A stretch of DNA of 64,000 nt, taken from NCBI RefSeq assembly GCF_022690685.1, contig NZ_JALCYY010000007.1, positions 1-64,000 on the forward strand, written 5' to 3'. The position numbers and the translations under genes were made by a program. The notes beneath the pieces were generated by a model. That model was not told the origin of the DNA. It searched no databases and saw only the letters and a program-made list of their open reading frames with translations. The stretch is from Anaeromyxobacter terrae. GTDB taxonomy: Bacteria > Myxococcota > Myxococcia > Myxococcales > Anaeromyxobacteraceae. This document shows, piece by piece, positions 22,297-42,077 of the stretch (position 1 is its first letter; each line of letters begins with the position of its first letter).

Positions 22297-23211
<915 letters not shown>

Positions 23212-28324: not shown

Positions 28325-28530
28325 GGAGAACTCTGCGTCAGAGCGTAGCAGCCGGCGACGTTCGGGTCGCCTCATCGCTCTCCGACAGCGGCACGCCTCG
28401 TCGCACCTTCCGCCAGTGAAGGCTCGCGGTTGCCGGCCGAGCACCGTGAGGACGACCCGAGCCCTCGCGCGCAGACCGAGAGCGCGACCCGTCCCGACCG
28501 GACCCGTCCCGACCGAGAGCACCCGTCCCT
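28325..28530. other. Gene-free region upstream of the RAYT repeats
   Basis: No gene is supported. The right half has degenerate copies of CGACCGAGAGC and GACCGGACCCGTCCC, apparently worn copies of the repeat described next. Confidence 0.5.
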
Positions 28531-28574
28531 ACCGAGAGTACCGCCGCGCGAACCGCCGGCCATCCCGCGGCCGT
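28531..28574 (+). repeat. RAYT-linked direct repeat, copy 1
   Basis: A 44-bp unit starts ACCGAGAGTACCGCCGCGCG and ends in GCGGCCGT. It recurs 56 bp downstream with a single mismatch. It holds the core CCGAGAGTA shared by other repeats in this region. Confidence 0.85.
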
Positions 28575-28586
28575 GCGGAGGCCCCG

Positions 28587-28630
28587 ACCGAGAGTACCGC
28601 CGCGCGAACCGCCGGCCATTCCGCGGCCGT
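28587..28630 (+). repeat. RAYT-linked direct repeat, copy 2
   Basis: Second 44-bp copy, ending about 70 bp before the transposase start. The CGGCCATTCCGCGGCCG part can form an imperfect hairpin, as REP sequences do. Confidence 0.85.
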
Positions 28631-28698
28631 TCTCGCATCGCGTAATCGTCTGTGATGACAAGGACGGGCGCGGCACGGCTCCTGCCTGCCCTCGCCGC

Positions 28699-29598
28699 GT
28701 GACCCCGCCTCGTCGCGTTTTGCCCGGAACCACCTACCTCGTGACGCGCCGCTGCTCGGAGCGACGCTTCTTCCTGCGGCCGAGTCGGGTCGTGAACGAG
28801 ATCTTCCTCTACGTCCTCGCGGTCGCCGCGCGCCGCTACGGCGTCTGCGTCCACGCGGTCTGCGTCCTCTCGAACCACGCACATCTGGTGGTCACCGACT
28901 CCGAGGGCCGGCTCCCCGCGTTCATGCAGTACCTCGACTCCCTCGTCGCGCGGGCAGTGAACGCGTCCCTGGGGCGCTTCGAGGGCTTCTGGGCGACCGA
29001 CGGCAGCTACAGCGCGGTCGAGCCGCTCGATCCGGCCGACGTCGTCGCCAAGACCGCCTATGTGCTCGCGAACCCGGTCGCCGCCGGCCTCGTCCGCCGC
29101 GGCGCCGAGTGGCCGGGCCTCTGGACCGCCCCCGCCCAGCTGGCGGGCACGAAGCTCTCGGTGCGGCGCCCCAAGGTCTTCTTCGACCCGAAGAGCCATT
29201 TGCCGGACGTCGCGGAGCTCGAGCTGACCGTCCCTCCCGGTTTCGCATCGGCGGAGGACTTCCGCGCGCTCGTATCGGAGGCGCTCGACGGCCTCGAGGC
29301 AAAGCACCAGGAGGAGGCCGCGTCGGAAAAGCGCAGGTTTCTCGGAGCTGCGCGCGTCCTCGCCCAGAACCCGTTTTCGCGTCCGCAGCCCGGCGAGCCG
29401 CGCTTCGGGCTCAGGCCGCGGATCGCCGCCCGCGACAAGTGGAGGCGGATCGAGGGGATCTTCCGTTTGAAGACGTTCCTGCGGGAGTACCGACAGGCCT
29501 GGACCGCGCGGCAGTCGGGCGCGTCCGACGCGAAGTTCCCGGCGGGCACCTACCTCCTGCGCCTCATGCACGGCGTGCTGTGCGCCGGCGCCGCGTAG
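28699..29598 (+). CDS. REP-associated tyrosine transposase (RAYT, IS200-like Y1 family)
   Basis: From GTG 28699 the protein is 299 residues. Its N-terminal 150 residues match the Y1_Tnp fold: PGTTYLVTRRCSERRFF, then the metal-binding HUH-type SNHAHLVV (about 59-66), and YLDSLVARAVN with a candidate nucleophile Tyr nearby. The C-terminal half is a basic extension typical of RAYTs. RAYTs are single-copy, domesticated IS200-type nucleases that spread REP palindromes but do not move themselves. Short repeats with a common core flank this gene in opposite orientations, supporting the assignment. No ATG is available upstream of the conserved region. Confidence 0.82.
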   Translation: MTPPRRVLPGTTYLVTRRCSERRFFLRPSRVVNEIFLYVLAVAARRYGVCVHAVCVLSNHAHLVVTDSEGRLPAFMQYLDSLVARAVNASLGRFEGFWATDGSYSAVEPLDPADVVAKTAYVLANPVAAGLVRRGAEWPGLWTAPAQLAGTKLSVRRPKVFFDPKSHLPDVAELELTVPPGFASAEDFRALVSEALDGLEAKHQEEAASEKRRFLGAARVLAQNPFSRPQPGEPRFGLRPRIAARDKWRRIEGIFRLKTFLREYRQAWTARQSGASDAKFPAGTYLLRLMHGVLCAGAA

Positions 29599-29714
29599 AC
29601 CGCTCCGCGCTCCATCAAGTCGATGAGGAACTCGGTCGCGATCGCATCCGGCGTCGCCGTGTGCGCGGCGTAGTGCCGACGATCGTCTGGCGTCGTCCGA
29701 GCCGCTTGGCGATC

Positions 29715-29736
29715 GGTTCGAGCGGTACTCACGGTC
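29715..29736 (-). repeat. Inverted degenerate copy of the RAYT repeat
   Basis: On the minus strand this reads GACCGTGAGTACCGCTCGAA, close to GACCGAGAGTACCGC...CGAACC of the upstream copies. It flanks the transposase on the other side in opposite orientation. Confidence 0.6.
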
Positions 29737-29765
29737 ACTCGGTCTCGCGAGCGGTCTGTTCCGCA

Positions 29766-29841
29766 CACCAGAGAGTCGGCCCTTAGGGTTCGCGAGCGGA
29801 GCCCGCGCCGGGCCCGGCCGATTACTCTCGGGCAGGGCCCC
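29766..29841. repeat. 76-bp dispersed repeat, copy 1
   Basis: CACCAGAGAGTCGGCCC ... GATTACTCTCGGGCAGGGC matches 40209-40284 at roughly 80% by eye. The last 22 bp are identical. The minus strand carries the CCGAGAGTA core. Confidence 0.8.
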
Positions 29842-29850
29842 GGGCGACGT

Positions 29851-31359
29851 TCACCCCGCCGTCCGGGGTCGCGGCCACCCTCGAGCGCCGGGAGGGCCGC
29901 GGTGCGCCGCGTGGTCCGACCTGGGCACGGTCGCGACGATCGAGCCGATGGCGATCAGCACCATGAGCGCGTTGAACAGCAGGGCGGCGCCCGCCGCGAA
30001 CCTGACCTGAACGTTGTCCGTTCGTCCCATGAAGATGCCAGCCAGAGGCGTGAAATCCTGCTCGTGGGCGAGGCCGGTGAACAGGGCGCCGGACAACGCG
30101 ACGCCCAACGCCGCGCCGAGCGACGAGGCCATCTTGTAGATTCCCGAGGCGCTCCCAGCCTTTTCTTGCGGAACGTTCGATAGGGCGGCATCGGTGGACG
30201 GTGTCGCGTAGAGGCCGAGGCCGACGCCGAAGAGCGTGAACCCGACGAATGCCACGGCGATGTACTGCCGTGCCAGGAGGAAGGTGAACGTCGTGAGGAC
30301 GATGCCGAGGGCGGTGATCCAGCAGCCGAGCAGCATGGGCCTTCTCGGGCCCCACTGCTGCAGGAGCTTCTCGCCCACACGAATCGTGGAGAGGATCGCC
30401 ACCAGGTACCCGGCGGTCATCAGGCCGGACTGCAGGGACGACAACCCGGCCTCTTGCTGAACCAGCGTCAGGGCCACGAGGAGAGTCCCGGCGGCGCCGT
30501 TCAGCAAGAAGTTCGACAGCGTCGCCCCGGTGTAGGTCGTGTTCGAGAATAGCCGCAGGTCGATGAAGCCGTGGGAGCCGCGAGCCTCGATCCGCAGGAA
30601 TGCGATCGTGCACACGACGAACAGAGCCGACAGCAGCTGCACCGACGGGCTCGTCCAACCCAGGGCGGATCCCTGCCCCATGACGACGTTCAGGGAGACC
30701 ATCGCGCCCACGAACGCGAGGAGCCCGGGCCAGTCGAAGGGGCCGTGCGTGGCGGACGCGGCCTTGCTCTCGGGCGTGCCCCGGATGAGCAGGAAGCTCG
30801 CCGCCGAAACCGCGATGGACATCCAGAAGATCCAGCGCCAGCCCAGCGTGGAGGCAACGAGGCCGCCGAAGAGCGCGGACAGGCCCGAGCCACCCCACGA
30901 GCCGATGGACCAGTAGCTCACCGCGCGTTGGCGCTCCTTCCCCTCGAACCTGGCTTTTAGGAGGGCGAGCGTCGCCGGCATGATGCAGGCGGCGGACAGG
31001 CCCTGGATGATGCGCCCGGCCATCAGGAACGCCGCCGTGCCGCGCGGGGAGATGGCGATGAGCAGCGAGCCAACCACGCTGAAGGCCAGCCCGACGTAGG
31101 TCAACTTCACGCGACCGAGGCGGTCCGCCAGCCCGCCCGCGACGACGATGAAGATCCCCGAGAAGAGGGCGGTGATGCTGACGGCGATGTTGCTCGTGCC
31201 CTCCCCGATCCCGAGCCCGTCGCGCATGGCCGGCGCGACGTTCAGCGTGGTCTGGGCGAACAGCCAAAACGTCACAACCGCCAGGACGATCCCGATGACG
31301 AGCGAAGCGTCCCAACCGCCCGCGAAAGGTCGGCTACTGGAAGAGATCGAACTCGCCAT
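29851..31359 (-). CDS. MFS drug:H+ antiporter, DHA2 (14-TM) type
   Basis: This 502-residue protein has about 14 hydrophobic segments. Motif A between segments 2 and 3 reads GGLADRLGRVKL, and a motif-C-like stretch reads GRIIQGLSAACIMPATLALL. These are marks of the DHA2 family (QacA, SmvA, EmrB relatives), which export cationic drugs or toxic metabolites using the proton gradient. Its start lies 26 bp inside the end of the upstream amidohydrolase gene, so the two form an operon. This suggests that the exporter handles the substrate or product of that hydrolase, but this is inference. Confidence 0.9.
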   Translation of the reverse strand: MASSISSSSRPFAGGWDASLVIGIVLAVVTFWLFAQTTLNVAPAMRDGLGIGEGTSNIAVSITALFSGIFIVVAGGLADRLGRVKLTYVGLAFSVVGSLLIAISPRGTAAFLMAGRIIQGLSAACIMPATLALLKARFEGKERQRAVSYWSIGSWGGSGLSALFGGLVASTLGWRWIFWMSIAVSAASFLLIRGTPESKAASATHGPFDWPGLLAFVGAMVSLNVVMGQGSALGWTSPSVQLLSALFVVCTIAFLRIEARGSHGFIDLRLFSNTTYTGATLSNFLLNGAAGTLLVALTLVQQEAGLSSLQSGLMTAGYLVAILSTIRVGEKLLQQWGPRRPMLLGCWITALGIVLTTFTFLLARQYIAVAFVGFTLFGVGLGLYATPSTDAALSNVPQEKAGSASGIYKMASSLGAALGVALSGALFTGLAHEQDFTPLAGIFMGRTDNVQVRFAAGAALLFNALMVLIAIGSIVATVPRSDHAAHRGPPGARGWPRPRTAG

Positions 31360-32563
31360 GGCGATAGACCCGACCAGCCTTCATGACGAAGTCCACCTTG
31401 CGGGTCACGGCGATGTCCTCGAGAGGATCACCCGGCATGGCGACCAGATCGGCCTTCATGCCGGGGGCGATCACACCCAGATCGTTTCGCAGCAAGAGCG
31501 CGGCGGCCTGACTCGTACCCGCCTTCAATGCGCGGGCGGGGGAGAGGCCCGACGCTACCATCGCCTGGAACTCGAGGATGCCCTCGCTGAACGGAAACAT
31601 CCCGCAATCCGTCCCGAGCGCCACATCGACCTTGCTCCGTGCAATACGCCGCTGCGCTTGCTCGATCGCGGCAACATCGCGGCGAAACTTCCAAACCGCC
31701 TGATCGGGAAGCTTGCCTGCTTCGAGGAGCGCCTTGTCCTCCTGCGTCATCTGCATGGTGGGCACGAGGAACGCTCCAGCCTTCTCGGCCATCGCGACTC
31801 CTTCGTCGTCGATGAGGTAGCAGTGCTCGAGGCTGCGGGCGCCTGCACGCAGTGCTTGCTTGCACCCGTCCGCTGCCCCGGTGTGCACGGCGAGCGGCAT
31901 CCCGAGTTGCTGGGCGGTCTGCCCGAGGGTCTGCATCTCGTCCTCGAACCAGGTCACTCTGGCCGGATCGTCGCCGGCGCTCATGTAGCCTCCTGTGTTC
32001 ATCGTCTTGATCCAGTCGCCGGAGAACGCACGCTCCATCCGGACCAACTCGCGAATCCTCGCGGGAGAATCCGCAACCCGAGACGTCTCAGTGTGGCAAC
32101 GGCACGGAAGCATCCCCTGCAAGTCGCCGTGGCCCGCGGTCGAGCTGATCATGTGGGCGGCCACGATCAGGCGCGGCCCCAGGGCTAGACCCCCGTCGAT
32201 CGCGTCGCGCAGATCGATCGTGGGCCATCCCGGATCCAGAACCCCCAGATCGCGGAGCGTCGTGAAGCCGTAGCGCATGTACTGCTGGGCGTGGCGAAGT
32301 CCCGCGAGCGCCTTGGTCGACGCGCGCTGAAGGGTCTGGCGCGCGAGATTCAGGCCATCTACGCAGAGATGAACGTGCGTATCGATGAAACCCGGAGCTA
32401 CGGTGCGGTCGCTCAGATCGTAGATCTTGGTGCCGGCGGAGCGGCGGGCCGAGCGGGAGAGCTCGGCGATCGTGTCATCCTCAATCACAATCTCGGTGGG
32501 CCCGAGCAATCGGTCATCGCGACCGTCGAACAGATCTCCGCAGATCACCACAGTCGTCGTCAT
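31334..32563 (-). CDS. Metal-dependent amidohydrolase (imidazolonepropionase/prolidase-like)
   Basis: This 409-residue amidohydrolase-superfamily protein has the HxH metal motif at H63/H65 (APGFIDTHVHL), a lysine in WIKTMNTGG that could be carboxylated, His in LAVHTGA and LEHCYLI, and the metal Asp in LGTDCGMF. The C-terminal beta domain includes IAPGMKADLVAMPGDPLED. It resembles the Xaa-Pro dipeptidase/organophosphate-acid-hydrolase-like subgroup, which cleaves cyclic amides or dipeptides. Its coding end overlaps the start of a 14-TM exporter, implying a shared detoxification or catabolic role. The exact substrate cannot be told. Confidence 0.87.
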   Translation of the reverse strand: MTTTVVICGDLFDGRDDRLLGPTEIVIEDDTIAELSRSARRSAGTKIYDLSDRTVAPGFIDTHVHLCVDGLNLARQTLQRASTKALAGLRHAQQYMRYGFTTLRDLGVLDPGWPTIDLRDAIDGGLALGPRLIVAAHMISSTAGHGDLQGMLPCRCHTETSRVADSPARIRELVRMERAFSGDWIKTMNTGGYMSAGDDPARVTWFEDEMQTLGQTAQQLGMPLAVHTGAADGCKQALRAGARSLEHCYLIDDEGVAMAEKAGAFLVPTMQMTQEDKALLEAGKLPDQAVWKFRRDVAAIEQAQRRIARSKVDVALGTDCGMFPFSEGILEFQAMVASGLSPARALKAGTSQAAALLLRNDLGVIAPGMKADLVAMPGDPLEDIAVTRKVDFVMKAGRVYRHGEFDLFQ

Positions 32564-32862
32564 CGGACGCCCCAGAGGTCCTGAAGGTCCCTGATTGCGA
32601 CCGCGGCGCCGAGGATCGCGGAGGAGGATCCTTCAACCTTCAAGAAGGATGAAGCGAGGCCGCGCACACGCCAAGGCATCCCATCGCGGGACCTGATGCG
32701 GCGCTCGCCGGCCACCGGTGGAGGAGCGCGGCGCCTCTTCGCAGCCACCTTCCGAGGGCCACCGCACGGTCGGCCCTCATGTTCGAGGAGCTCCGTAGCG
32801 CCGGGGGCAACCGCCGTGTCGGTGCGCCGGCAGTCAAACGCTCGGCGCTCCGCACGGAGCGC
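32564..32862. other. Divergent intergenic region
   Basis: This stretch lies between the divergent amidohydrolase and ArsR genes. No gene is supported; the regulatory signals seen are at its ArsR end. Confidence 0.45.
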
Positions 32863-32891
32863 TTGCACGTAACCATCGGGTTAGATAGCCT
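32863..32891 (+). promoter_or_regulatory. Promoter and possible ArsR operator
   Basis: TTGCAC (32863-32868) and TAGCCT (32886-32891) are 17 bp apart. Between them is the palindrome TAACCATCGGGTTA (32870-32883). An ArsR-type repressor bound there would block its own promoter. The -10 ends 9 nt before the ATG. Confidence 0.45.
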
Positions 32892-32900
32892 CCTGGTTAG

Positions 32901-33266
32901 ATGCCAGCAGACGCGTTGAGCCTGACGTTTGCCGCGCTCGCCGACCCGACGCGGCGAGCGATCCTGAAGCGGCTGGCCGCCGGGACCGCGAACGTGAAGG
33001 AGCTGTCGCGGCCCTTCGACATGAGCGGTCCGGCGGTGTGCAAGCACCTGCGTGTGCTGGAGCGAGCCGGGTTGATCCGGCGCGGTCGCGAGGCGCAGTC
33101 GCGGCCGTGCCAGCTCGAGCCCGCGCCGCTCAAGCAGGTCGTCGCCTGGGCGGAGGGGTACCGCGCGTTCTGGGACGCGGGCTTCGACCGCCTCGACGTG
33201 TACCTTCAGAAGGCGCACGCGCAGCGCCGGAAGGAGGTGCGCGATGCCCGCCGCCGGAAGCGCTAG
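32901..33266 (+). CDS. ArsR-family winged-helix repressor
   Basis: This 121-residue protein has the ArsR DNA-binding fold: FAALADPTRRAILKRL at the N-terminus and recognition region FDMSGPAVCKHLRVLERAGL. There is no metal-binding Cys cluster of the ELCVC type, so it belongs to the non-metal group that is usually paired with an SRPBCC protein. Its end overlaps the start of that gene by 23 bp. It probably represses its own operon through the palindrome just upstream. The effector is unknown. Confidence 0.88.
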   Translation: MPADALSLTFAALADPTRRAILKRLAAGTANVKELSRPFDMSGPAVCKHLRVLERAGLIRRGREAQSRPCQLEPAPLKQVVAWAEGYRAFWDAGFDRLDVYLQKAHAQRRKEVRDARRRKR

Positions 33267-33771
33267 CGACCTACTCGACGAACGCGAGTTTGCGGTCCCG
33301 CGCGAGCTGGTGTTCGAGGCCTGGACCGTGGCGGAGCACTTCGCGCGCTGGTTCGCTCCGCACGGCGTCGACGTTCCGCTGTGCGAGATGGATGCGCGCC
33401 CCGGCGGCGCGCTCCGCTTCCATCATCGGTTCGCCACCGGCGAGCTGGTGTCGATCAAGGGCGTGTTCGACGAGGTGATCGCGCCGTCCCGGCTGCGCTT
33501 CACGTTCACGTTCGTCGATGCCGATGACCGGCCGAGCGCGCCGCCGGTGTTCCCGGAGTGGCCGGTCGGCGTCCACATCGTGATGACCGTCGAGCTGTAC
33601 GCGACACCGCGCGGCACGCGCATGACGGTTCGCCAGCGCGTCGCGGAGCCCGAGGCGGCCGGCACCCCGCCGGTGGTGCGCCACCACAAGCTCGCCGGCG
33701 AGGGCTGGCGTCAGACCGCCGAGCGGCTGGTCGAGTACCTCGAACACAGGAGCACGCGATGGCCAGGCTGA
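33244..33771 (+). CDS. SRPBCC-family protein (AHSA1/START-like)
   Basis: This 175-residue protein has the AHSA1-type helix-grip fold: VPRELVFEAWTVAEHFARWFAP, an RPGGALRFHH strand pair, and a C-terminal helix GWRQTAERLVEYLE. Such proteins form a deep hydrophobic ligand pocket and are very often encoded next to ArsR repressors. It overlaps the ArsR gene by 23 bp and the reductase gene by 13 bp, so all three are translationally linked. Ligand and activity are unknown. Confidence 0.88.
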   Translation: MPAAGSASDLLDEREFAVPRELVFEAWTVAEHFARWFAPHGVDVPLCEMDARPGGALRFHHRFATGELVSIKGVFDEVIAPSRLRFTFTFVDADDRPSAPPVFPEWPVGVHIVMTVELYATPRGTRMTVRQRVAEPEAAGTPPVVRHHKLAGEGWRQTAERLVEYLEHRSTRWPG

Positions 33772-34334
33772 TCTATGCGATGAACATCTCCCTCGACGGC
33801 TACATCTCCGATCGCGACGGCAAGTTCGACTGGTCCGTGCCGACGCCGGAGCTGTTCGCGGCCTTCAACGACCTCCAGCGCCCGATCGGCACGTACCTCT
33901 ACGGCCGCCGCCTGTACGAGACGATGGCCGTCTGGGACACCGCCCATCTCGAGCCCGGCGGGCCTGCGTTCATCCCCGGCCTGGGCGAGCTCGAGCGCGA
34001 GTTCGCGACGATGTGGCGGGCCGCGGACAAGGTCGTGTTCTCGACGACGCTGGCGCGCGCGTCGACCCCGCGCACGCGCATCGAGCGCGCCTTCGAGCCC
34101 GACCAGGTGCGCCGGCTCAAGGCGACGAGCGAGCTCGACCTCACCGTCGGCGGCCCGCACCTCGCGGGGGCGATGATCGCCGCGAACCTCGTCGACGAGC
34201 TCCAGGCGTTCATCCACCCGATCATGATCGGCGGCGGCCATCCCTGGCTGCCGGGCGACCTCCGCGTTCCGCTCGAGCTCGTCGGCGAGCGCCGCCTCGG
34301 CCGCGTCGTTCACCTGCGCTATCGACCGAGCTAG
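33759..34334 (+). CDS. Dihydrofolate reductase-like protein (RibD C-terminal family)
   Basis: This 191-residue protein shows the RibD_C/DHFR-like fold: MNISLDGYISDRDGKFDW, YLYGRRLYETMAVWD, a VVFSTTL strand, and a cofactor loop in LTVGGPHLAGAMIA. Family members (YwjB, YyaP) are presumed NADPH-dependent reductases of unidentified substrates. It is the third gene of an ArsR-SRPBCC-reductase operon, an arrangement seen in many actinobacteria and myxobacteria. The start ATG lies inside the SRPBCC gene end. Confidence 0.87.
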   Translation: MARLIYAMNISLDGYISDRDGKFDWSVPTPELFAAFNDLQRPIGTYLYGRRLYETMAVWDTAHLEPGGPAFIPGLGELEREFATMWRAADKVVFSTTLARASTPRTRIERAFEPDQVRRLKATSELDLTVGGPHLAGAMIAANLVDELQAFIHPIMIGGGHPWLPGDLRVPLELVGERRLGRVVHLRYRPS

Positions 34335-34690
34335 TGCACGCGGTCGATCCCCTTGCGCAGCGACGTGCCGGCGAGCACCGGCGCCCCGGGACAGACGAGG
34401 CCCTCGAGGTCCAGCTTGCGGCGGCCGAGCTCGTCGAACACGCGGACCGCGCCGGTCGCCGGATCGGCGAACGTGACCCCGGCGAGGAACGAGGACAGCT
34501 GGCCTCGGTGCCGGGCGTGCGCGGCGAGATGTGGACGAACACCGTGTTGGTCTCCTGGGCCGCGTGGCAGCCGTTGCACGTGTTGAGCGCGAAGTGATGC
34601 CGGGCGCTGGGATCGCTGCCGGGCGAGAACCACGTGCCGAGGTCGTTGAACACGGCCCCGGCCTGTAACGGCTGGCCCGCGAAGACGAGC
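34331..34690 (-). pseudogene. C-terminal remnant of a haem-binding (CxxCH) secreted protein, frameshifted
   Basis: On the minus strand one frame gives GAVFNDLGTWFSPGSDP followed by HFALNTCNGCHAAQETNTVF, with a CNGCH haem site, and HISPRTPGTEA. The continuation, FLAGVTFADPATGAVRVFDE to LRKGIDRVH and a stop, is in another frame, so a shift lies near 34500. The pattern resembles myxobacterial secreted proteins with an NTCNGCH motif. The N-terminal part is missing and the remnant begins where the SDR remnant starts, at about 34690. Confidence 0.7.
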
Positions 34691-35121
34691 GGCACTTCGA
34701 GCGCCGCCCGTACGATCCGTGGTCGGCGTACGGTCAGTCCAAGACCGCCAACGCTCTCTTCGCCGTCGCGGCGACCACGCGCTGGCGCGACGACGGCATC
34801 ACCGCGAACGCGCTGCACCCGGGCGCCATCCACACCGCCCTCCAGCGTCACGTCTCGGAGGAGGAGCTGGAGCGCCTCCGGCGGTCCATGGGGGGAGCGC
34901 AGACGATCCCGTGGAAGACGCCGGAGCAGGGCGCGGCGACCTCGGTCGTGCTCGCGACGTCCCCGCAGCTCGAGGGGCTCGGCGGGCGCTACTTCGAGGA
35001 CTGCAGCGAGGCGCTGCCCAACAACCCCGGGACGCGCACCGGCGTCGCCCCGTGGGCCCTGGATCCCGAGGTGGCGGCGCGGCTCTGGACGGTGTCCGAG
35101 CACGCGGTCGATCGCGCGTAG
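34678..35121 (+). pseudogene. C-terminal fragment of a short-chain dehydrogenase
   Basis: The frame gives HFERRPYDPWSAYGQSKTAN, holding the catalytic YxxxK (Tyr-Gly-Gln-Ser-Lys), then DGITANALHPGAIHT and an SDR C-terminus to the TAG at 35121. The Rossmann motif TGxxxGIG and the Asn-Ala-Gly segment, about 160 residues, are absent. The fragment abuts the haem-protein remnant on the opposite strand, so a deletion or recombination joined the two at about 34.69 kb. A downstream ATG at 34888 could make only 77 residues, unlikely to be functional. Confidence 0.75.
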
Positions 35122-35282
35122 TCACCTCACAGCAAAGGAGAGACTCGAGTGACCACCCGACAATGCCTGTGGAGCCTGGGCGAGCGGCTCCTCGGCTCGA
35201 ATCGGTGAACGGAAGAAGACCGGCCAGTATGCAAACCCCTCCCGTACCACCTGCGCCGAAGCACGGCGATCGAGGACCTGCC

Positions 35283-36368
35283 ATGCCTCTCAACCACTAC
35301 CTGACGCTCGGCCGCTCGGGGCTCCGGGTGAGCCCCCTCTGCCTCGGCGGTATGACCTTCGGCGAGGATCTCGGCTGGGGCTCCACCGTCGAGGAGTCCC
35401 AGCAGATCATCGATCGATTCATCGAGCTGGGCGGCAACTTCATCGACACGGCGAACTTCTACACCAAGAGCCACTCCGAGAAGATCATCGGCGACCACGT
35501 CGGCCGGCACCCGTCGCGCCGCGACCGGCTCGTCATCGCCACGAAGTTCAGCGGCAACCTCTACCCCGGCGACCCGAACGGCGGCGGATCGAGCCGGAAG
35601 TCGATCGTCTCGGCGTGCGAGAACTCGCTGCGGCGCCTCCAGACCGACTACATCGACCTGTACTGGCTGCACAACTGGGACGTCCACACGCCGATCGAGG
35701 AGACGATGTCGGCGCTCGACGCCCTCGTGCGCGCGGGCAAGGTGCGCTACCTCGGCGTGTCGGACACGCCGGCCTGGAAGGTGGCCCAGGCGAACGTGCT
35801 GGCCGGGTTCAGGGGATGGTCGGCGTTCGTCGGGCTCCAGATCGAGTACTCGCTCCTCGAGCGCACCGTGGAGCAGGAGCTCGTCCCGATGGCGCTCGAG
35901 CTCGGCCTCGGGATCACTCCGTGGTCGCCGCTCAAGAGCGGCGCGCTGAGCGGGAAGTACACTCGCCGCAACGCCGGCGAGGTCAAGCAGGACCGCAGCC
36001 AGTTCCTCGAGCCCTTCCTCAACGAGCGGACCTACGCCCTCGTGGAGGAGCTGGAGGTCGTCGCGCGGGCGCACGAGAGCACCGTGGCGCGCGTGGCGCT
36101 CGCGTGGGTGCGCGGGAAGCCCGGGGTGACCTCGACCATCATCGGCGCGCGGCGCCTCGCGCAGCTCGACGACAACCTGCGATCGCTCGAGCTCGAGCTC
36201 ACGCCGGACGAGCGCGCCCGGCTCGACGCGCTCACCGCGCCCACCTTCGGCTTCCCGCAGAACATGCAGCCCATCTTCCCTGCCATCCACAACGGCGGGA
36301 CGACCGTGAACGGCGTCTACGCACCGCCCTCGCCGTTCGGGCTGGTGTGGGGCGACGAGCCCTACTGA
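35283..36368 (+). CDS. Aldo/keto reductase
   Basis: This 361-residue (alpha/beta)8 oxidoreductase shows the catalytic tetrad: Asp55 and Tyr60 in FIDTANFY, Lys88 in IATKFSG and His130 in LYWLHNWD. NADPH contacts lie in GITPWSPLKSGALSGKY and STIIGARRLAQLDDNL. The sequence is of the AKR11/YajO-like or Tas-like class acting on small aldehydes. It appears intact and stands alone after the SDR remnant; both might once have belonged to one cluster. Confidence 0.92.
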   Translation: MPLNHYLTLGRSGLRVSPLCLGGMTFGEDLGWGSTVEESQQIIDRFIELGGNFIDTANFYTKSHSEKIIGDHVGRHPSRRDRLVIATKFSGNLYPGDPNGGGSSRKSIVSACENSLRRLQTDYIDLYWLHNWDVHTPIEETMSALDALVRAGKVRYLGVSDTPAWKVAQANVLAGFRGWSAFVGLQIEYSLLERTVEQELVPMALELGLGITPWSPLKSGALSGKYTRRNAGEVKQDRSQFLEPFLNERTYALVEELEVVARAHESTVARVALAWVRGKPGVTSTIIGARRLAQLDDNLRSLELELTPDERARLDALTAPTFGFPQNMQPIFPAIHNGGTTVNGVYAPPSPFGLVWGDEPY

Positions 36369-36433
36369 CGTTGGGAGCGGCAGCGTCGTAACGAGCAGGG
36401 TGCGCACCGGCCCGCGACGCCTCTCACCGAAGG

Positions 36434-39400
36434 TTACGGCCCGACATGCACATCGGTCACGCCCGAGATCCCGCTGTTCCAGACGTCCCACCACCTGAAC
36501 GTGGCGCCGGCGTCCGTCGAGACGCCCAGCTCCGAGCTCCCGCCGACCCAGATGGCGCTGTCCGGCGTGACGAGGAGCGCCTTCGGGTACGTGCCCGCCG
36601 TCGCGGCGAGCGCCGTGAAGGACGCGCCGCGGTCGGTCGAGACCTCGACCTGCCGACCGTCGGCCACGTAGACGTCCCCGCTCGACGCGATGAACACGTC
36701 CGCGACCGTCGAGGGATAGGCGATCCCCGCCGACTCCGTGCGGAGCGCGAACGAGGTCGCGCCGCCGTCGTTCGAGACCGCGAGGCCGCCGGACGTCGCG
36801 ACGTAGACGTCCTGGCCGGAGAAGGCGATCGCGTTCGGCAGGTTCGGGTACATGGCGATGCGCGGCCCGAAGGTCTGGCCTCCGTTCGTGGACTTCCAGA
36901 CCTCCCCCGACGTGCCGTACCAGACCGTGCTGCCGCTGGCCGCCACGCACTCTCCGGAGTTGCCGTTCAGCCCCGCGTTTCCGCTCGGCGGGTTCGTCCA
37001 GTCGTTCGCACCGGTCCGGAGATCGAACGTGCTTCCCCCGTCGTACGAGATGGACAGCCCGTAGGACGTCGCGACGTAGAGCTTCCCCGTGCCGACGTCG
37101 AGGAAGAGGTCCTCGGGCGTGGTCGACTTGAACGGCCCCTGCCCGGCGAGCGTGTACGCGCTCCGGAACACCGGCCAGGTGCGGCCGCGATCGCGGGAGA
37201 TCGCGATCCCACTGTAACCGCCGCCGCCGACGAGCGCGTAGAGCTCGGTCGCGTTCCCGGTGATGCGTTCGATCCCGCCGGTCAGGTCCGCCGGCGCGAA
37301 CGTGACGCCCGCGTCCGTGGAGCGCCAGAGGGAGGGAGCCGCGCCCACCCAGACCGTGCTGCCCTCGGCCAGGATCGCCGCTGGCGCCGGGTCGTGCTCG
37401 GGGATGCCGATGGAGCGCGCGGTGAACGTGGCGCCACCGTCCGTCGACGTCGCGAAGCTCTTGCCTCCGCCCGACAGCGGGCTCGTGGCGGCGTGGACAT
37501 GGGTACCGGAGACGGCGACGCGGCGCACGTCGTTGGTGTCCAGGCCCTGTGCGGTCGTTCGGAGCGCGCCGAAGCCGTCGCCGCCGTCGGTGGAGATCGC
37601 GAGGCCCACGTCCGTGGCGACGTACACTTTCGTCCCGTCGCAGGCGACGTGGTGGTTCGCCGTCGCGCCGGCGGCCGCGGTCACCGTCGTCCACGTGACG
37701 CCCGCGTCATGCGAGACCTCCACCCCGCCGGAGTGCGTCGCGTAGACGTCGTCGCCGCAGGCCGCGACCGAGGTGAACCAGACGCCGTCGGCGTGACGAA
37801 GCGAGCTCCTCATCCGGTCGTGCGACACGAGCAGCCCGGAGCGCGTTCCGACGAACCCATGCCGATCGGAGAGCGCGATGGCGGTGACGGAGTCCCGGTC
37901 GTAGATCCCGTAGTGCCGCTCGTCGAACGACGCACCAGCGTCGCACGAGACGAAGAGGCCCCGGTCCGTGCCGACGTAGATCCGGCTCCCGAAGGCCGCC
38001 GCGGCGGTGAGCTGAGACGGCGCGCCATCGCTCGCGCGCACCGTGAAGTGGTGCCACGTCGCGCCGTCGTCGTCGCTGTAGGCGAGCCTCCCTCCGAGTC
38101 GGCGATAGAGGCGGCCGCTCGCGCGGTCCCGGAACAGCTCCAGGGCCTCGCCGATCATTCCCGTCGACACCCAAGCCGTCGGGACCCTCCCCGCGCCGCG
38201 GAAGAGGTCGCCGCCACCCGCGACGTAGACGAAGCCGTCGCCGGAGACCGAGTAGTCGTTCTCGCGGATGACCTCGACGTGCCCGACCGCGTCCTCGGCC
38301 CGATACCGGAGGACCGTCTCGCCGGGCCCGGCGTGGATCGGTCCCGCTGTCGCGCCCTGCACGATCGTGCCGGTTCCGCCGTCGAAGCTCGGGATGGAGC
38401 CGTCCGTGGTGTAGACGATGCGCTCACAGCCGGAGCCTGCGCCGTCGAAGCAGGTCAGGGTCACGTCCTGCGCGGTCGCGTACGCGCCCGACGCCACGCT
38501 CGCCGTCGTTCGTGGCTCGTCGCAGTCGGCGGCGGTGGTGAAGGACCAGGTGGTCGGCGCCGGGAGAGCGTTGCCGGCGAGATCGGTCGCGCCCGAGACG
38601 GTGAGCGTGTACGCCGTGCCGCACTCGAGGAGTTCGGCGGGCTGGGCGGTCGAGGTCCGCGTGGGCTCGTCGTAGCTCGCGCCGCCTGGCGCCGCGGGGA
38701 CCGCCACGATCGCGCCCCGGAGGGCGCCGTCATCGCGCATCGGCTCGTCGAACGTGACGTGGAACGGGGTGTCTAGCCGCACGCCGATCGCGCCGTCGGG
38801 CGGGAACACCGAGGCCACCCCCGGTGGATCGGTGTCCATCACGTAGGTCTCGCTGCGAGGCGCCTCGGCATTGCCCTGCGCATCGACGGAGAAGAACCGC
38901 AGCGTCAGCGAACGGTCCACCGTGATCGGCGCGACGTACGCAGGAGACGCGGCCGTCGGGTTCGAGCCGTCCACCGTGTAGTGCGTGACGCTGCAGCCCG
39001 TACCGCCCACGTCGTCCTGGCAGACGAGGGTCACCTGCCGCGGGAAGCTGTAGAAGCCGCCCGGGGGCGTCGCGGTGGTGGTCGGGGGAATCGTCTCCGG
39101 CGTCGCCTGCGTGGTGAAGACGAAGAACCGAACCGGCCCGACCTCGCCGTGAGCGCCTCGGAGCGCGGTCGAGAGGCTGACCGAGTAGGTCGTCGAGTAC
39201 GCGAGCGGCTGGGCCGGATCGATGACGATCGCCGCGCGCGACGCGTCGTAGGTGATCGCGGCCGGGACGGGAGCGCCCCAGAGGGCGAGGGTGGCCGCGC
39301 CCGGGATGCTCGCCGGGTCGAGGCAGGTGTTGTAGCGGATCACCAGGTCGCCGTTCACCGCGACGCCGGTCTGGCCGGGGTACGGCGTCGAGTCCGCGAT

Positions 39401-39547
39401 CTCCAGCGCGGTGGCGCGCGGGAGCGGACAGGCGCCGCTCGCGGGGCCGCCCTCCTCGCTCGATCCGCCGGAGCACGCCAGGGTGGCGGCGAGGAGGGCT
39501 GTGAAGGTCGCGCGGCGCGCGCCCGGGGTGGCGGTGGCGGGGCTCAT
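36434..39547 (-). CDS. Large surface lipoprotein with Ig-like, chitobiase-type and beta-propeller (BNR) repeats
   Basis: From ATG 39547 the protein is 1037 residues. A signal peptide ends in the lipobox LAATLAC. It then has an SbsA/Big_5-like Ig domain (about 45-165), a CHB_HEX-type domain (FYSFPRQVTLVCQDDVGG, YTVDGSNP), a second Ig domain (FPPDGAIGVRLDTPFHVTF) and a second CHB_HEX-type domain (YTTDGSIPS). Residues about 440-1037 form at least ten BNR/Asp-box-like propeller blades of the STDGGATF pattern, as in sortilin and sialidases. It is likely anchored in the outer membrane and surface-exposed. No catalytic residues are apparent; a binding role is inferred. Confidence 0.85.
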   Translation of the reverse strand: MSPATATPGARRATFTALLAATLACSGGSSEEGGPASGACPLPRATALEIADSTPYPGQTGVAVNGDLVIRYNTCLDPASIPGAATLALWGAPVPAAITYDASRAAIVIDPAQPLAYSTTYSVSLSTALRGAHGEVGPVRFFVFTTQATPETIPPTTTATPPGGFYSFPRQVTLVCQDDVGGTGCSVTHYTVDGSNPTAASPAYVAPITVDRSLTLRFFSVDAQGNAEAPRSETYVMDTDPPGVASVFPPDGAIGVRLDTPFHVTFDEPMRDDGALRGAIVAVPAAPGGASYDEPTRTSTAQPAELLECGTAYTLTVSGATDLAGNALPAPTTWSFTTAADCDEPRTTASVASGAYATAQDVTLTCFDGAGSGCERIVYTTDGSIPSFDGGTGTIVQGATAGPIHAGPGETVLRYRAEDAVGHVEVIRENDYSVSGDGFVYVAGGGDLFRGAGRVPTAWVSTGMIGEALELFRDRASGRLYRRLGGRLAYSDDDGATWHHFTVRASDGAPSQLTAAAAFGSRIYVGTDRGLFVSCDAGASFDERHYGIYDRDSVTAIALSDRHGFVGTRSGLLVSHDRMRSSLRHADGVWFTSVAACGDDVYATHSGGVEVSHDAGVTWTTVTAAAGATANHHVACDGTKVYVATDVGLAISTDGGDGFGALRTTAQGLDTNDVRRVAVSGTHVHAATSPLSGGGKSFATSTDGGATFTARSIGIPEHDPAPAAILAEGSTVWVGAAPSLWRSTDAGVTFAPADLTGGIERITGNATELYALVGGGGYSGIAISRDRGRTWPVFRSAYTLAGQGPFKSTTPEDLFLDVGTGKLYVATSYGLSISYDGGSTFDLRTGANDWTNPPSGNAGLNGNSGECVAASGSTVWYGTSGEVWKSTNGGQTFGPRIAMYPNLPNAIAFSGQDVYVATSGGLAVSNDGGATSFALRTESAGIAYPSTVADVFIASSGDVYVADGRQVEVSTDRGASFTALAATAGTYPKALLVTPDSAIWVGGSSELGVSTDAGATFRWWDVWNSGISGVTDVHVGP

Positions 39548-39760
39548 GCGTTTCTCTCGCGGTGATGAACGTGTGGTGGACGTCTTGACTGCACGACCAG
39601 TGACGACCGCGGCCAGGAAATCATCTCGCCGGCCGGATGTCATGCGGTTGCGGCTCGAGGAGGGCCCAACGGCTGCGAGACGTCCACGCTCGGCCGTTAC
39701 CCCCAGCGTCCGCCCCGCGTCGGCAGGGAGGCAGGAGGGACAAGCCGCCCTCGGCCGGGG

Positions 39761-40003
39761 TTACTGCCGACCCGAAGGCAGCAACGCAGCAAGCGCGAGA
39801 CAGCCAAGACCAACGCAAATCAGGATGAGACCTGGCCGAGTGAACGCGCCCGTCATCGCGACTCTCTCGAAGAGGCTCTGCGTGAGGGCCTTCGGACTTA
39901 CGCGGGGGAATGGCAGCGCCATTACTCCGATCCCGGCAACGCAGATGCCCAGGACTAGCAGGATCCGTTTCGCGCGTGTCACACGAACAAGCATACCGGG
40001 CAT
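39761..40003 (-). CDS. Small two-helix membrane protein, hypothetical
   Basis: This 80-residue frame has two strong hydrophobic segments (about residues 12-31 and 55-75) separated by a loop with ALTQSLFERV and ends SGRQ. It resembles generic two-TM hypothetical proteins. No clear ribosome-binding site is visible, so it may be spurious. It ends the coding part before the repeat-rich stretch. Confidence 0.45.
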   Translation of the reverse strand: MPGMLVRVTRAKRILLVLGICVAGIGVMALPFPRVSPKALTQSLFERVAMTGAFTRPGLILICVGLGCLALAALLPSGRQ

Positions 40004-40049
40004 CTACAAGCGCCGGACTACTTGTTGAGACGTGCCGGGCGGTCGTTCT

Positions 40050-40203
40050 CCGACCGAGAGTAATCGCCAGAACCTCAGGACGCGGCGCGGGACTCTCCTG
40101 ACGCGAAGCATCGGAATCCACAAAGACCTTCCGTGATAGGCATGACGCACAGACGACGCCGCCTCGCGCGTCATTGCGTGCGACCGGATTACTCTCGGCA
40201 TGT
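40050..40203 (+). mobile_element. MITE-like element, copy A
   Basis: About 155 bp bounded by inverted ends. The left end is CCGACCGAGAGTAATC and the right end GGATTACTCTCGG. It is about 90% identical by eye to copy B at 41493 in the same orientation. The interior, containing GAAGCATCGGAATCCAC and ACGACGCCGCCTCGCGCGTC, has no coding capacity for a transposase. The termini share the CCGAGAGTA core with the RAYT repeats, so a common origin is plausible. Confidence 0.8.
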
Positions 40204-40208
40204 CCGCC

Positions 40209-40284
40209 CACCAGCGTCGGCCCGTCAGGCTTGGCGAGCCGACCGCGCGCCGGGGCCCGCCCGATTACTCTCGGGCAGGGCCCC
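40209..40284. repeat. 76-bp dispersed repeat, copy 2
   Basis: This matches 29766-29841 at about 80% by eye, with the final 22 bp identical. It starts five bases beyond the right end of MITE copy A. Confidence 0.8.
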
Positions 40285-40461
40285 CCGATCGATGCCGATT
40301 CCACGCGCACGGACAGTGAGTCCGCGCCAGGCCGCCGCATGCGTCTGAGTCGCCCCCAGACGCAGCTCGCCGTCGCGAGGGCCGAGAGGGATATGCTTTG
40401 GCGAGCCCTGCCGCGCGGACCGCTGGTCGGGCTAATAGACGTGCGGGACAGACCACGCAAG
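40285..40461. other. Upstream region of the broken secreted-protein gene
   Basis: No gene is supported here. GC content falls across the stretch toward the foreign-looking gene. The only strong signal at its end is the AAGGAGG ribosome site at 40462-40468. Confidence 0.4.
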
Positions 40462-40473
40462 AAGGAGGCAGAA

Positions 40474-41110
40474 ATGACACTTCTAAGGCGTCAGTGTCTC
40501 CTAATTTCGGCCGTGGCATCAGTCTTGATCGCGGGCCACTGCCCCCCCGGAACAGATGGACAAATTGGCAGCGGATCTCAAGAAGTACCAGACTATGTAT
40601 GGATGTCAAAGCGCCGAATCGGTGTGCAAGACGTATAACGCGGGAACACCTAGCGTGAGTAGCCCTTCATCCTCAGGAGTGTGTACGGACGGTCAGTCAC
40701 CGCCACAGTGGGGCTGCTGCCAGGGCATGGAGTGCCTTATGGCGAATTTCGTCAAAAACGATCACATACAAGTTCAGGCACTACTGGATCCTACGCACCC
40801 CGCCAGCATCTTCACCAACAATTTTCCGCAATGGAAGGTCACATTTCTGAAGACCGCAACGCTATTCAGCGTGACCAAGAATTCCGCGGGCAAGCCCGTC
40901 TGCACCTTATCCGATCCCGGAATCAATGGCGTGTACCAACCAGACAGCGTCGTCGTAATCACGATTGACGGGAAGGTTCTCTCATACGAGGTGTGCGAGA
41001 TTGGTTTACAGATTAACGGAACCAAATACTACGAGCACTTTGCATCCGATGCGCCTCCCGGGAACATTCAGCCGGGGTGCGTAGGATGGGTGGAGTGTGT
41101 AACACAGTGA
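40474..41110 (+). pseudogene. Secreted Cys-rich protein gene broken in a C7 run
   Basis: A strong Shine-Dalgarno AAGGAGG (40462-40468) precedes ATG 40474, which opens a signal peptide (LLISAVASVLIAG). After seven C (40542-40548) that frame leaves the gene. The next frame continues from EQMDKLAADLKKYQTMYGC to a TGA at 41110 with about 185 residues, ten of them Cys (including WGCCQGMEC). Removing one C would join both parts into roughly 210 residues. Base composition is near 50% GC, unlike its neighbours, suggesting transfer. The family is unknown. It may be a real inactivation or a sequencing error in the C-run. Confidence 0.7.
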
Positions 41111-41492
41111 TCACGAAAGCGGCTCCCCGCGTCGTGGGGACGGAAACCGGCGCCCGCGCGAAAGCAACTTGCGTCACGGTTCGGAAATAGCGCGCTTCTC
41201 ATGCTGGCGCCAACGGGACGGTTGCCTGCGCTGCGGGTTCGACATGCCGACCCCCCTCGACCAGACTACCCGCGGCGCAGACATAGCTGCTTAATCGGCA
41301 TCCACCTCGCGAGGGGCGGAAGCACTCAGCTGCCGGGGAGCAATCCGGCGCACGACCGCGGCGCTTTGCGAGCGCGCCGCGCGAGCACGCATCCGCCAAA
41401 GCCAGAGAAGCTGCGCGATCCTTCCAAGGCACCGCGCCTACGGCGCGGGCGATCTTTCCGCGCCGGAGCGCCTGGATCGCAGCAGCGATTCC
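41111..41492. other. Gene-free region between the secreted-protein gene and MITE copy B
   Basis: No gene is supported. It includes GCGCCTACGGCGC- and GCCGCGGC-type short palindromes but no clear terminator. GC rises gradually back to the local average. Confidence 0.4.
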
Positions 41493-41648
41493 CCGACCGA
41501 GGGTAATCGCCAGAACCTCATGACGCGGCCGCGGAACTCTCCTGGCGCGAAGCATCGGAATCCACGAAGACTTTCCGTGATAGGCCTGACGCACAGACGA
41601 CGCCGCCTCGCGCGTCATTGCGTCCGACCGGATTAGTCTCGGTCAGGT
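41493..41648 (+). mobile_element. MITE-like element, copy B
   Basis: Same element as copy A, about 1.44 kb downstream and in the same orientation. Its ends are CCGACCGAGGGTAATC and GATTAGTCTCGGTCAGG, an inverted repeat of about 16 bp with three mismatches. Around a dozen base differences separate the copies, so neither insertion is recent. Confidence 0.8.
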
Positions 41649-42077
41649 CCGCACAGCTTCAAGCGCCCGATCGACTTGCGCGGCATCGGAACCTCCGCGC
41701 TCCGCTCCAGGACGCAGCAGCTCGGGCAAGTCGCTTCCTCCGGGACAGCGTCGCGTCGATCCGGCCGACCGCGCCGCATAGGTCGACGCCGCGGATGAGC
41801 AGGTGGATCACCGGGCCACGCCATGCCAGCGAGCGACGGAGCCTTGGTCCCCGTGCTCGCGGTAGTGAAGGCTCCCCGCACGGGTGAAGAAGCGTGCTCG
41901 CCGCACCGACACACGCCTACCCGGTCCGTATGCACGTTCGGCGAATCTTCACGCTGGGTAGCTGTTGGTCTAAAATGGAGCATGCGACCCTTTGTCGTGC
42001 GTACCCCGGGAGCGCCGGAACGGTTGGCTCCCTCCTGATCGTCTTGCGCTTCCGGGGTCCGCTTCCTCGCAGGTCTC
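41649..42077. other. Gene-free region upstream of the small HTH gene
   Basis: About 430 bp with no convincing gene. Open frames on both strands have irregular codon use and end within the MITE. The part near 41930-41985 is locally AT-richer and may hold a promoter for the HTH gene, but no clean hexamer pair was found. Confidence 0.4.

Follow-up and report, generated by a model that had tools for sequence, protein, structure and literature searches.

Background

Enzymes of the Y1 HUH type form a 5'-phosphotyrosine and leave a 3'-OH, and how those called REP-associated tyrosine transposases (RAYTs; REP, repetitive extragenic palindrome) spread repeats is poorly understood (PMC8266576). In REPtrons and REPINs, a class 2 Y1 enzyme with a Y---NP motif is encoded between inverted ends that track the enzyme phylogeny, and small gene-less derivatives occur (PMC2817692, PMC8266576, PMC6006769). 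In TIRtrons, the inverted repeats on either side of a RAYT homologue are of another kind than GTAG REPs (Di Nocera et al. 2013, PMC3733652). The present work concerns a RAYT-encoding element in a stretch of 64,000 nucleotides from Anaeromyxobacter terrae (contig NZ_JALCYY010000007.1, positions 1 to 64,000), the whole of which is referred to as the window. The element probably belongs to a family of RAYT transposons with terminal inverted repeats (TIRs), gene-less derivatives and one-ended derivatives, which would arise through a nick at a fixed distance from a short core and the joining of a 3' end.

The system of the window resembles the TIRtrons more than the REPtrons, because neither a REP hairpin at the right end nor a target duplication was found. 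As in TIRtrons, the gene lies between inverted repeats unrelated to GTAG REPs (both ends in 41 of 57 RAYT copies, without a right-end REP hairpin) and further repeats are found elsewhere in the genome (15 of 24 matches apart from RAYT ends). The repeat-gene distances are also similar, and the further copies of the TIRYT repeats are likewise single or grouped in the genome (PMC3733652). However, the TIRtron motif GGGGWSAS is found by reading on neither strand of the core consensus CCNGACCSAGAGTW, and the accessible part of PMC3733652 mentions neither a constant outer limit of stacked ends nor Anaeromyxobacter. The locus shares with REPtrons and REPINs the enzyme class, the Y---NP motif, the inverted ends that track the enzyme and the small gene-less derivatives. 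REPtrons, by contrast, carry a GT[AG]G head with a palindrome and usually more than 100 repeats per genome, and neither is the case here (at most 42). The proteins of the TnpAREP subclasses 2.1 and 2.3 belong, like the present ones, to class 2, are long because of a C-terminal extension and lack REP hairpins, subclass 2.3 reaching more than five copies in some genomes (PMC6006769). Subclass 2.1 has a C-terminal helix-turn-helix (HTH) or Bac_DnaA_C domain (PMC6006769), whereas Pfam finds neither in the window RAYT.

The HuH and Y---NP motifs of a class 2 Y1 enzyme are present in the window RAYT, although curated family thresholds are not reached. Movement of the IS200/IS605 type leaves no target duplication, and none was found here (outer 8 nt, n=43); as to the subterminal hairpins of those elements, folding here is weak at the left end and not in excess at the right. 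In the one-ended transposition of IS91 and Helitron elements, the moved piece has one fixed and one variable limit. The same pair of limits is seen here, but with a small Y1-type enzyme and with both element ends behaving alike. Cleavage by RAYTs in vitro has been studied for a few enzymes, on hairpin REPs. The literature search found no work linking RAYTs with Anaeromyxobacter. The 8-nt outer limit reported below is not described in the accessible parts of the TIRtron literature covered, to which subscription papers (Bertels 2017) did not belong, and it is not claimed to be unpublished.

The RAYT element of the window

An earlier note on this DNA had proposed three repeat families with one core around a RAYT gene. 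The window contains one RAYT element, one lone copy of its right end and two gene-less units. The parts of the element are the following.

28578..29841, + strand: RAYT element, 1264 bp, bounded 8 nt outside its left and right cores (8-nt limit taken from stacked ends)
28586..28596, + strand: left core GACCGAGAGTA of the element, from the core search
28530..28540, + strand: outer left core TACCGAGAGTA, the second one, lying 56 bp farther upstream
28511: third, more degenerate left core GACCGAGAGCA, upstream of the outer left core
28699..29598, + strand: RAYT-like Y1 HUH gene, with a putative GTG start and HAH and Y...NP motifs
29726..29736, - strand: degenerate inverted core copy GACCGTGAGTACCG, which occurs in loci L114 and L052 too
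29823..29833, - strand: right core GCCCGAGAGTA of the element, its outer 8 nt being 29834-29841

The shared core is real and its repeats lie where they had been placed. The 9-mer CCGAGAGTA is present at six positions of the window, whereas 100 dinucleotide shuffles contain it 0.30 times on average and at most twice. Scaled from these shuffles, about 26 chance occurrences are expected in the host genome (5.65 Mb in 142 contigs), whereas the 14-nt form CCNGACCGAGAGTW is specific, with 19 matches there and none once the pattern is reversed. The core forms part of a terminal signal, about CCNGACC[G/C]AGAGTW, of the RAYT-encoding element. The two direct repeats upstream of the gene, reported as 44 bp long, were found as 48 nt at 96% identity (28527-28574 and 28583-28630), and the degenerate inverted copy after the gene is present at 29726. 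The pair reported as 76 bp aligns at 84.5% over 84 columns (29760-29841 and 40203-40284). The three families are not independent of each other: of the two 76-bp copies, the one at 29.8 kb forms the right end of the RAYT element, and the one at 40.2 kb repeats this end on its own.

The RAYT that the note had named is real but divergent. It matches NCBIfam REP_Tyr_transpos at E 8.2e-15 and 54.9 bits (curated cut-off 80). The sole Pfam report is Y1_Tnp, at 17.8 bits (cut-off 23), without an HTH or DnaA-like (Bac_DnaA_C) domain. An alanine stands between the two histidines; HxH is found in 57/57 and Y...NP in 56/57 of the full-length proteins of the family. A sequence search retrieved no solved structure at E<=0.1. 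The nearest relatives in named genomes are those of Anaeromyxobacter soli, A. oryzae and A. oryzisoli.

Ends shared by the RAYT copies of the family

The family sample comprised 24 genomes of Anaeromyxobacteraceae, with a RAYT at E<1e-50 in 17, weak matches only in four and none in three. Among 59 full-length copies, 57 were scored (two with a short upstream flank were left out, and fragments did not enter the scoring of both ends). These copies have ends in common: an inward-facing core matching at least 9/11 positions is found at the left in 51/57, at the right in 45/57 and at both ends in 41/57, against 0/54 control windows farther upstream and 1/9 farther downstream. In 50 of the 51, a distance of 114-130 bp separates the left core from the aligned second codon downstream. 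For the window's own element, the right end scored in this count is the degenerate inner copy at 29726, while the target-duplication test used the true one. The end variants match within an element (9.80 of 11 positions vs 9.19 permuted, n=46, 0/10000 as high), and L161 carries GTCCCAGAGAC at both ends. The core type, G or C, agrees with the RAYT protein tree, where it changes 5 times vs 16.4 with shuffled labels (0/500 as low; three of the 57 rows had no G/C label).

Core matches number 221 in the 17 genomes with a close RAYT (143 of the G form, 78 of the C form). In the seven others, the G form matches once and the C form not at all (Mann-Whitney p=2e-4); the 221 take in the elements' own ends, and the contrast between the genome groups reflects in part shared ancestry. 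Reversed patterns give 1 (G form) and 5 (C form) matches over all 24 genomes, and exact G-type matches reach at most 42 in any one of them. The core is thus neither common at random, its 14-nt form being rare by chance, nor equally present in relatives without the gene (one match in seven genomes vs 221 in 17), two outcomes that the earlier note had named as speaking against the link. Genome G011 has RAYTs but 0 core matches; its left ends read GAGAGAA, outside the search patterns. In the host genome, 24 exact G- or C-type matches were found, 15 of them away from RAYT ends by our own count, along with 11 whole and broken matches to the window RAYT at E<=1e-3. A core within one mismatch of GACCGAGAGTA adjoins the RAYT copies on C110, C61, C62, C63, C92 and C134.

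Eight RAYT copies of genomes G001, G002 and G007 (L136, L138, L139, L142, L148, L164, L165, L166) keep the left core and have no right core at 9/11; they are apparently positionally common to the three genomes, as if fixed in place. An inverted repeat similar to GTCCGC...GCGGAC lies about 15-35 nt inside the core in many left ends (e.g. L144, L150, L165) and is possibly an extra recognition site.

Stacked ends and their outer limit

RAYT ends are also found stacked, and 68 adjacent same-orientation core pairs were compared. The outer limit of the stacked units is fixed and the inner one is variable. The match outside the core ends at exactly 8 nt in 25/68 pairs from 15 loci (one of the 25 being bounded by its 19-bp unit) and reaches at least 8 nt in 38/68, while about 1% of comparisons between loci reach 8 outer nt. 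The chance that a match stops is at most 0.13 at every length under 8 and 0.66 at 8. The identity of the 8 outer nt varies by locus. The inner limits vary, and some lie within the RAYT gene (G001, 437 bp; C134, 322 bp). Between G001 and G002, one orthologous locus differs by stacked-end units.

A similar limit is found with an unrelated core. In another family of the same order, RAYTs 31-44% identical to that of the window have the core GGTGTCAAAG in 28/29 loci, and arrays of it stand at the ends of the RAYTs L270, L271, L272 and L277-L305. There, 25/44 stacked pairs have at least 7 outer nt in common vs 1.9% between loci, a count that shifts by one with the chosen core start. A RAYT at 51% identity, from another family of the class, is flanked at 129 and 239 bp by inverted ends of its own, GAACCAGGATAGTT. 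The Anaeromyxobacter core is absent from the ends of the RAYTs outside Anaeromyxobacteraceae. A core-free search for inverted repeats among these loci found at least 13/14 matching positions in 16/45 vs 2/45 reversed controls, two further loci with short flanks having been dropped.

Gene-less units and lone ends

The remaining features of the window are the following.

40044..40207, + strand: gene-less unit 1, whose inward-facing cores lie at 40052-40062 (left) and 40190-40199 (right, lacking one base)
41487..41652, + strand: gene-less unit 2, in the same orientation as unit 1
40203..40284, - strand: lone copy of the right end of the RAYT element, core 40266-40276
40556..41110, + strand: open reading frame (ORF) of 184 aa in low-G+C DNA between the gene-less units, without Pfam or NCBIfam match

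The lone right end and the RAYT element, 10 kb apart, have exactly 8 nt outside the core in common, AGGGCCCC, and then diverge. The outer edge of unit 1 marks the start of the lone end, which is oriented like the right core of that unit; positions 40203-40207 are attributable to either. The two gene-less units, reported as a 155-bp pair, align at 91.6% over 167 columns (40046-40210 vs 41489-41655) and have 7/8 outer nt in common at the right and 5/8 at the left. With the RAYT ends they share only the core and some inner bases. A search of nine genomes of the genus for further copies found none but a 30-nt match in G003, so the copy count of this unit is two, both in the window.

The earlier note had regarded these units as similar to miniature inverted-repeat transposable elements (MITEs) and as possibly mobilised by the RAYT. 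Their RAYT-like ends are supported, and better instances exist in the host genome at C62:63093 and C70:25349, where a gene-less unit has RAYT-type left and right ends. That at C62:63093 is the clearer derivative: it is 166 bp long with a left-type and a right-type end, sits 4 kb from a broken RAYT and has a right end similar to that of this RAYT element, so that, as in a MITE, its ends are shared with an autonomous element. For the window's own two units, movement by this RAYT copy is inferred, as just two copies exist, both in the window.

Most of the dispersed copies inspected are lone ends and not paired units. At 22 dispersed places (16 from the host genome, the window's two units included), an inward-facing partner at 9/11 within 60-500 bp was detected in 5/22, against 0/40 control pieces, and the remaining 17 are lone ends at this threshold. 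The partner detected for unit 1 is a wrong pair, because the right core of that unit lacks one base. One type of lone left end, about 25-30 nt long and resembling the left end of the C63 RAYT, occurs at no fewer than seven places in the host genome (control 0), a count that takes in the C63 RAYT's own end. In the dispersed lone ends, only CC at -3 and -2 is constant in all copies. Two lone ends at G000:C1:82282 and 82704 (L317) have 41 identical bp, lie 422 bp apart in direct orientation and have unrelated flanks.

The stretch 40285-41488 between the directly oriented gene-less units is low in G+C (0.57 for 40285-41110, against 0.71 for the window) and may be a foreign passenger. The upstream start of the 184-aa ORF was seemingly lost through a frame change near a C run. 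Elsewhere in the window, direct repeats that overlap in steps of 12 and 18 bp (22320-22634) probably encode a low-complexity protein tail.

Movement, target sites and hairpins

The 11 RAYT copies of G004 form one clade (SH-aLRT 90) and their left outer flanks differ, save for L149 and L155 with 8 nt in common. One clade in differing flanks indicates that gene and ends were multiplied together. Direct repeats are lacking at the outer 8-nt limits of whole elements, where 2.74 of 8 positions match vs 2.86 after permutation (n=43). A direct 8-nt target duplication was rejected, the outer nt agreeing instead in the inverted sense (4.63 vs 3.97 of 8, 0/5000 permutations as high). In G005 and G003, sequence homologous to the flank left of unit 1 ends near 40039-40042, and the right flank is not common. 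G005 lacks the RAYT locus of G001 and G002 and keeps its neighbours, whose matches lie 91 bp apart, with limits blurred by divergence.

The earlier note had also stated that RAYTs act on REP palindromes. This link is not supported here: a 5' GT[AG]G next to a palindromic hairpin is absent from the core. REP hairpins at the ends were likewise rejected, since the mean folding z was -0.88 for 51 left ends, which is weak, and -0.16 for 45 right ends, which is no excess.

A model and its alternatives

In the favoured reading, that of a transposon family with one-ended derivatives, a RAYT-like Y1 HUH enzyme would recognise CCNGACC[G/C]AGAGTW on the strand where the motif reads inward. It would nick this strand about 8 nt 5' of GACC and remain attached to the new 5' end. 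A free 3'-OH, having copied a variable stretch of an end, would then be joined to that 5' end. Such a nick, followed by joining of the copied strand, would give a fixed outer and a variable inner limit, as found in the arrays. One-ended addition beside the parent would produce end stacks, and elsewhere lone ends, while processing of both ends would move a whole element or a gene-less unit.

Several points weigh against this reading. Fewer than 8 outer nt are common in 30/68 stacked pairs, and the pairs of one array or of orthologous loci are mutually dependent. In the GGTGTCAAAG lineage the peak at 7-8 is broader (6-9), with 19/44 pairs under 7. No right core at 9/11 is found in 12/57 RAYTs, and among the 45 right cores at least L114 scores solely via the degenerate inner copy. 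The window's RAYT protein falls under the curated cut-offs of both Pfam and NCBIfam, and the window's gene-less unit exists in two copies only. A clean empty site was sought in relatives (G001/G002, G003, G005) and was not found. In the host genome, nine left ends of one type, whether lone or belonging to an element, have pairwise only 0-6 outer nt in common, which tells against the reading because a unit carried from a single donor should bring 8. Either the donors differed, or only CCN travels and five extra nt arise at stacking. Finally, we infer the cutting by this enzyme, the strand cut and the joining chemistry from comparisons of genomes.

Alternatively, whole TIR elements would move, and the stacked ends would be ordinary tandem repeats made without the enzyme, through slippage during replication or through unequal crossing-over. 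Short units, about 20-60 bp, are common and the G+C-rich ends may slip; by a simple measure, just 29/68 units reach a match of at least 85% with the following one. Nevertheless, unit lengths vary inside one array (23 to 59 bp in L120) while the outer limit stays at 8 nt in 15 loci, a limit near 7-8 nt recurs with an unrelated core, and the copy of the RAYT right end 10 kb off, which borders another unit on its outer side, is left unexplained by local slippage. This account is therefore unlikely, although it deserves to be kept in mind.

The constancy of only CC at -3 and -2 in the dispersed lone ends, five nt fewer than stacked ends share, would suit an insertion like that of a staggered-cutting transposase. 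The mobile unit would begin with CCN and stacking would duplicate a 5-bp target, so that the 8 nt would consist of five duplicated and three carried. This is improbable, as whole elements are without direct repeat at the 8-nt limits and the window's lone right end retains all 8 nt at 10 kb from its likely donor. To our knowledge, Y1 enzymes do not make such target duplications. That the core serves the RAYT gene as a binding site or promoter element and is not a transposon end, which the near-constant distance between left core and gene might suggest, is hardly credible given the inverted downstream partner in 45/57 with variants matched at both ends, the RAYT fragments with the same ends and the lone or gene-less copies far from any RAYT.

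Significance

The transposon reading may extend beyond Anaeromyxobacter, although we hold this wider form only tentatively. RAYTs could add single ends by a nick about 8 nt outside a short lineage-specific core, with capture of the 3' end at a variable place, existing ends, those of other units included, serving as landing sites. A single reaction of this kind would account for the stacked and lone ends as well as the gene-less units of two or more myxobacterial lineages that differ in their cores. The genomes hold likely RAYT products whose sharp outer limit is found with two cores unrelated to each other, and this predicts a directly testable cleavage site. In these bacteria, the RAYT multiplies along with its ends rather than staying single.

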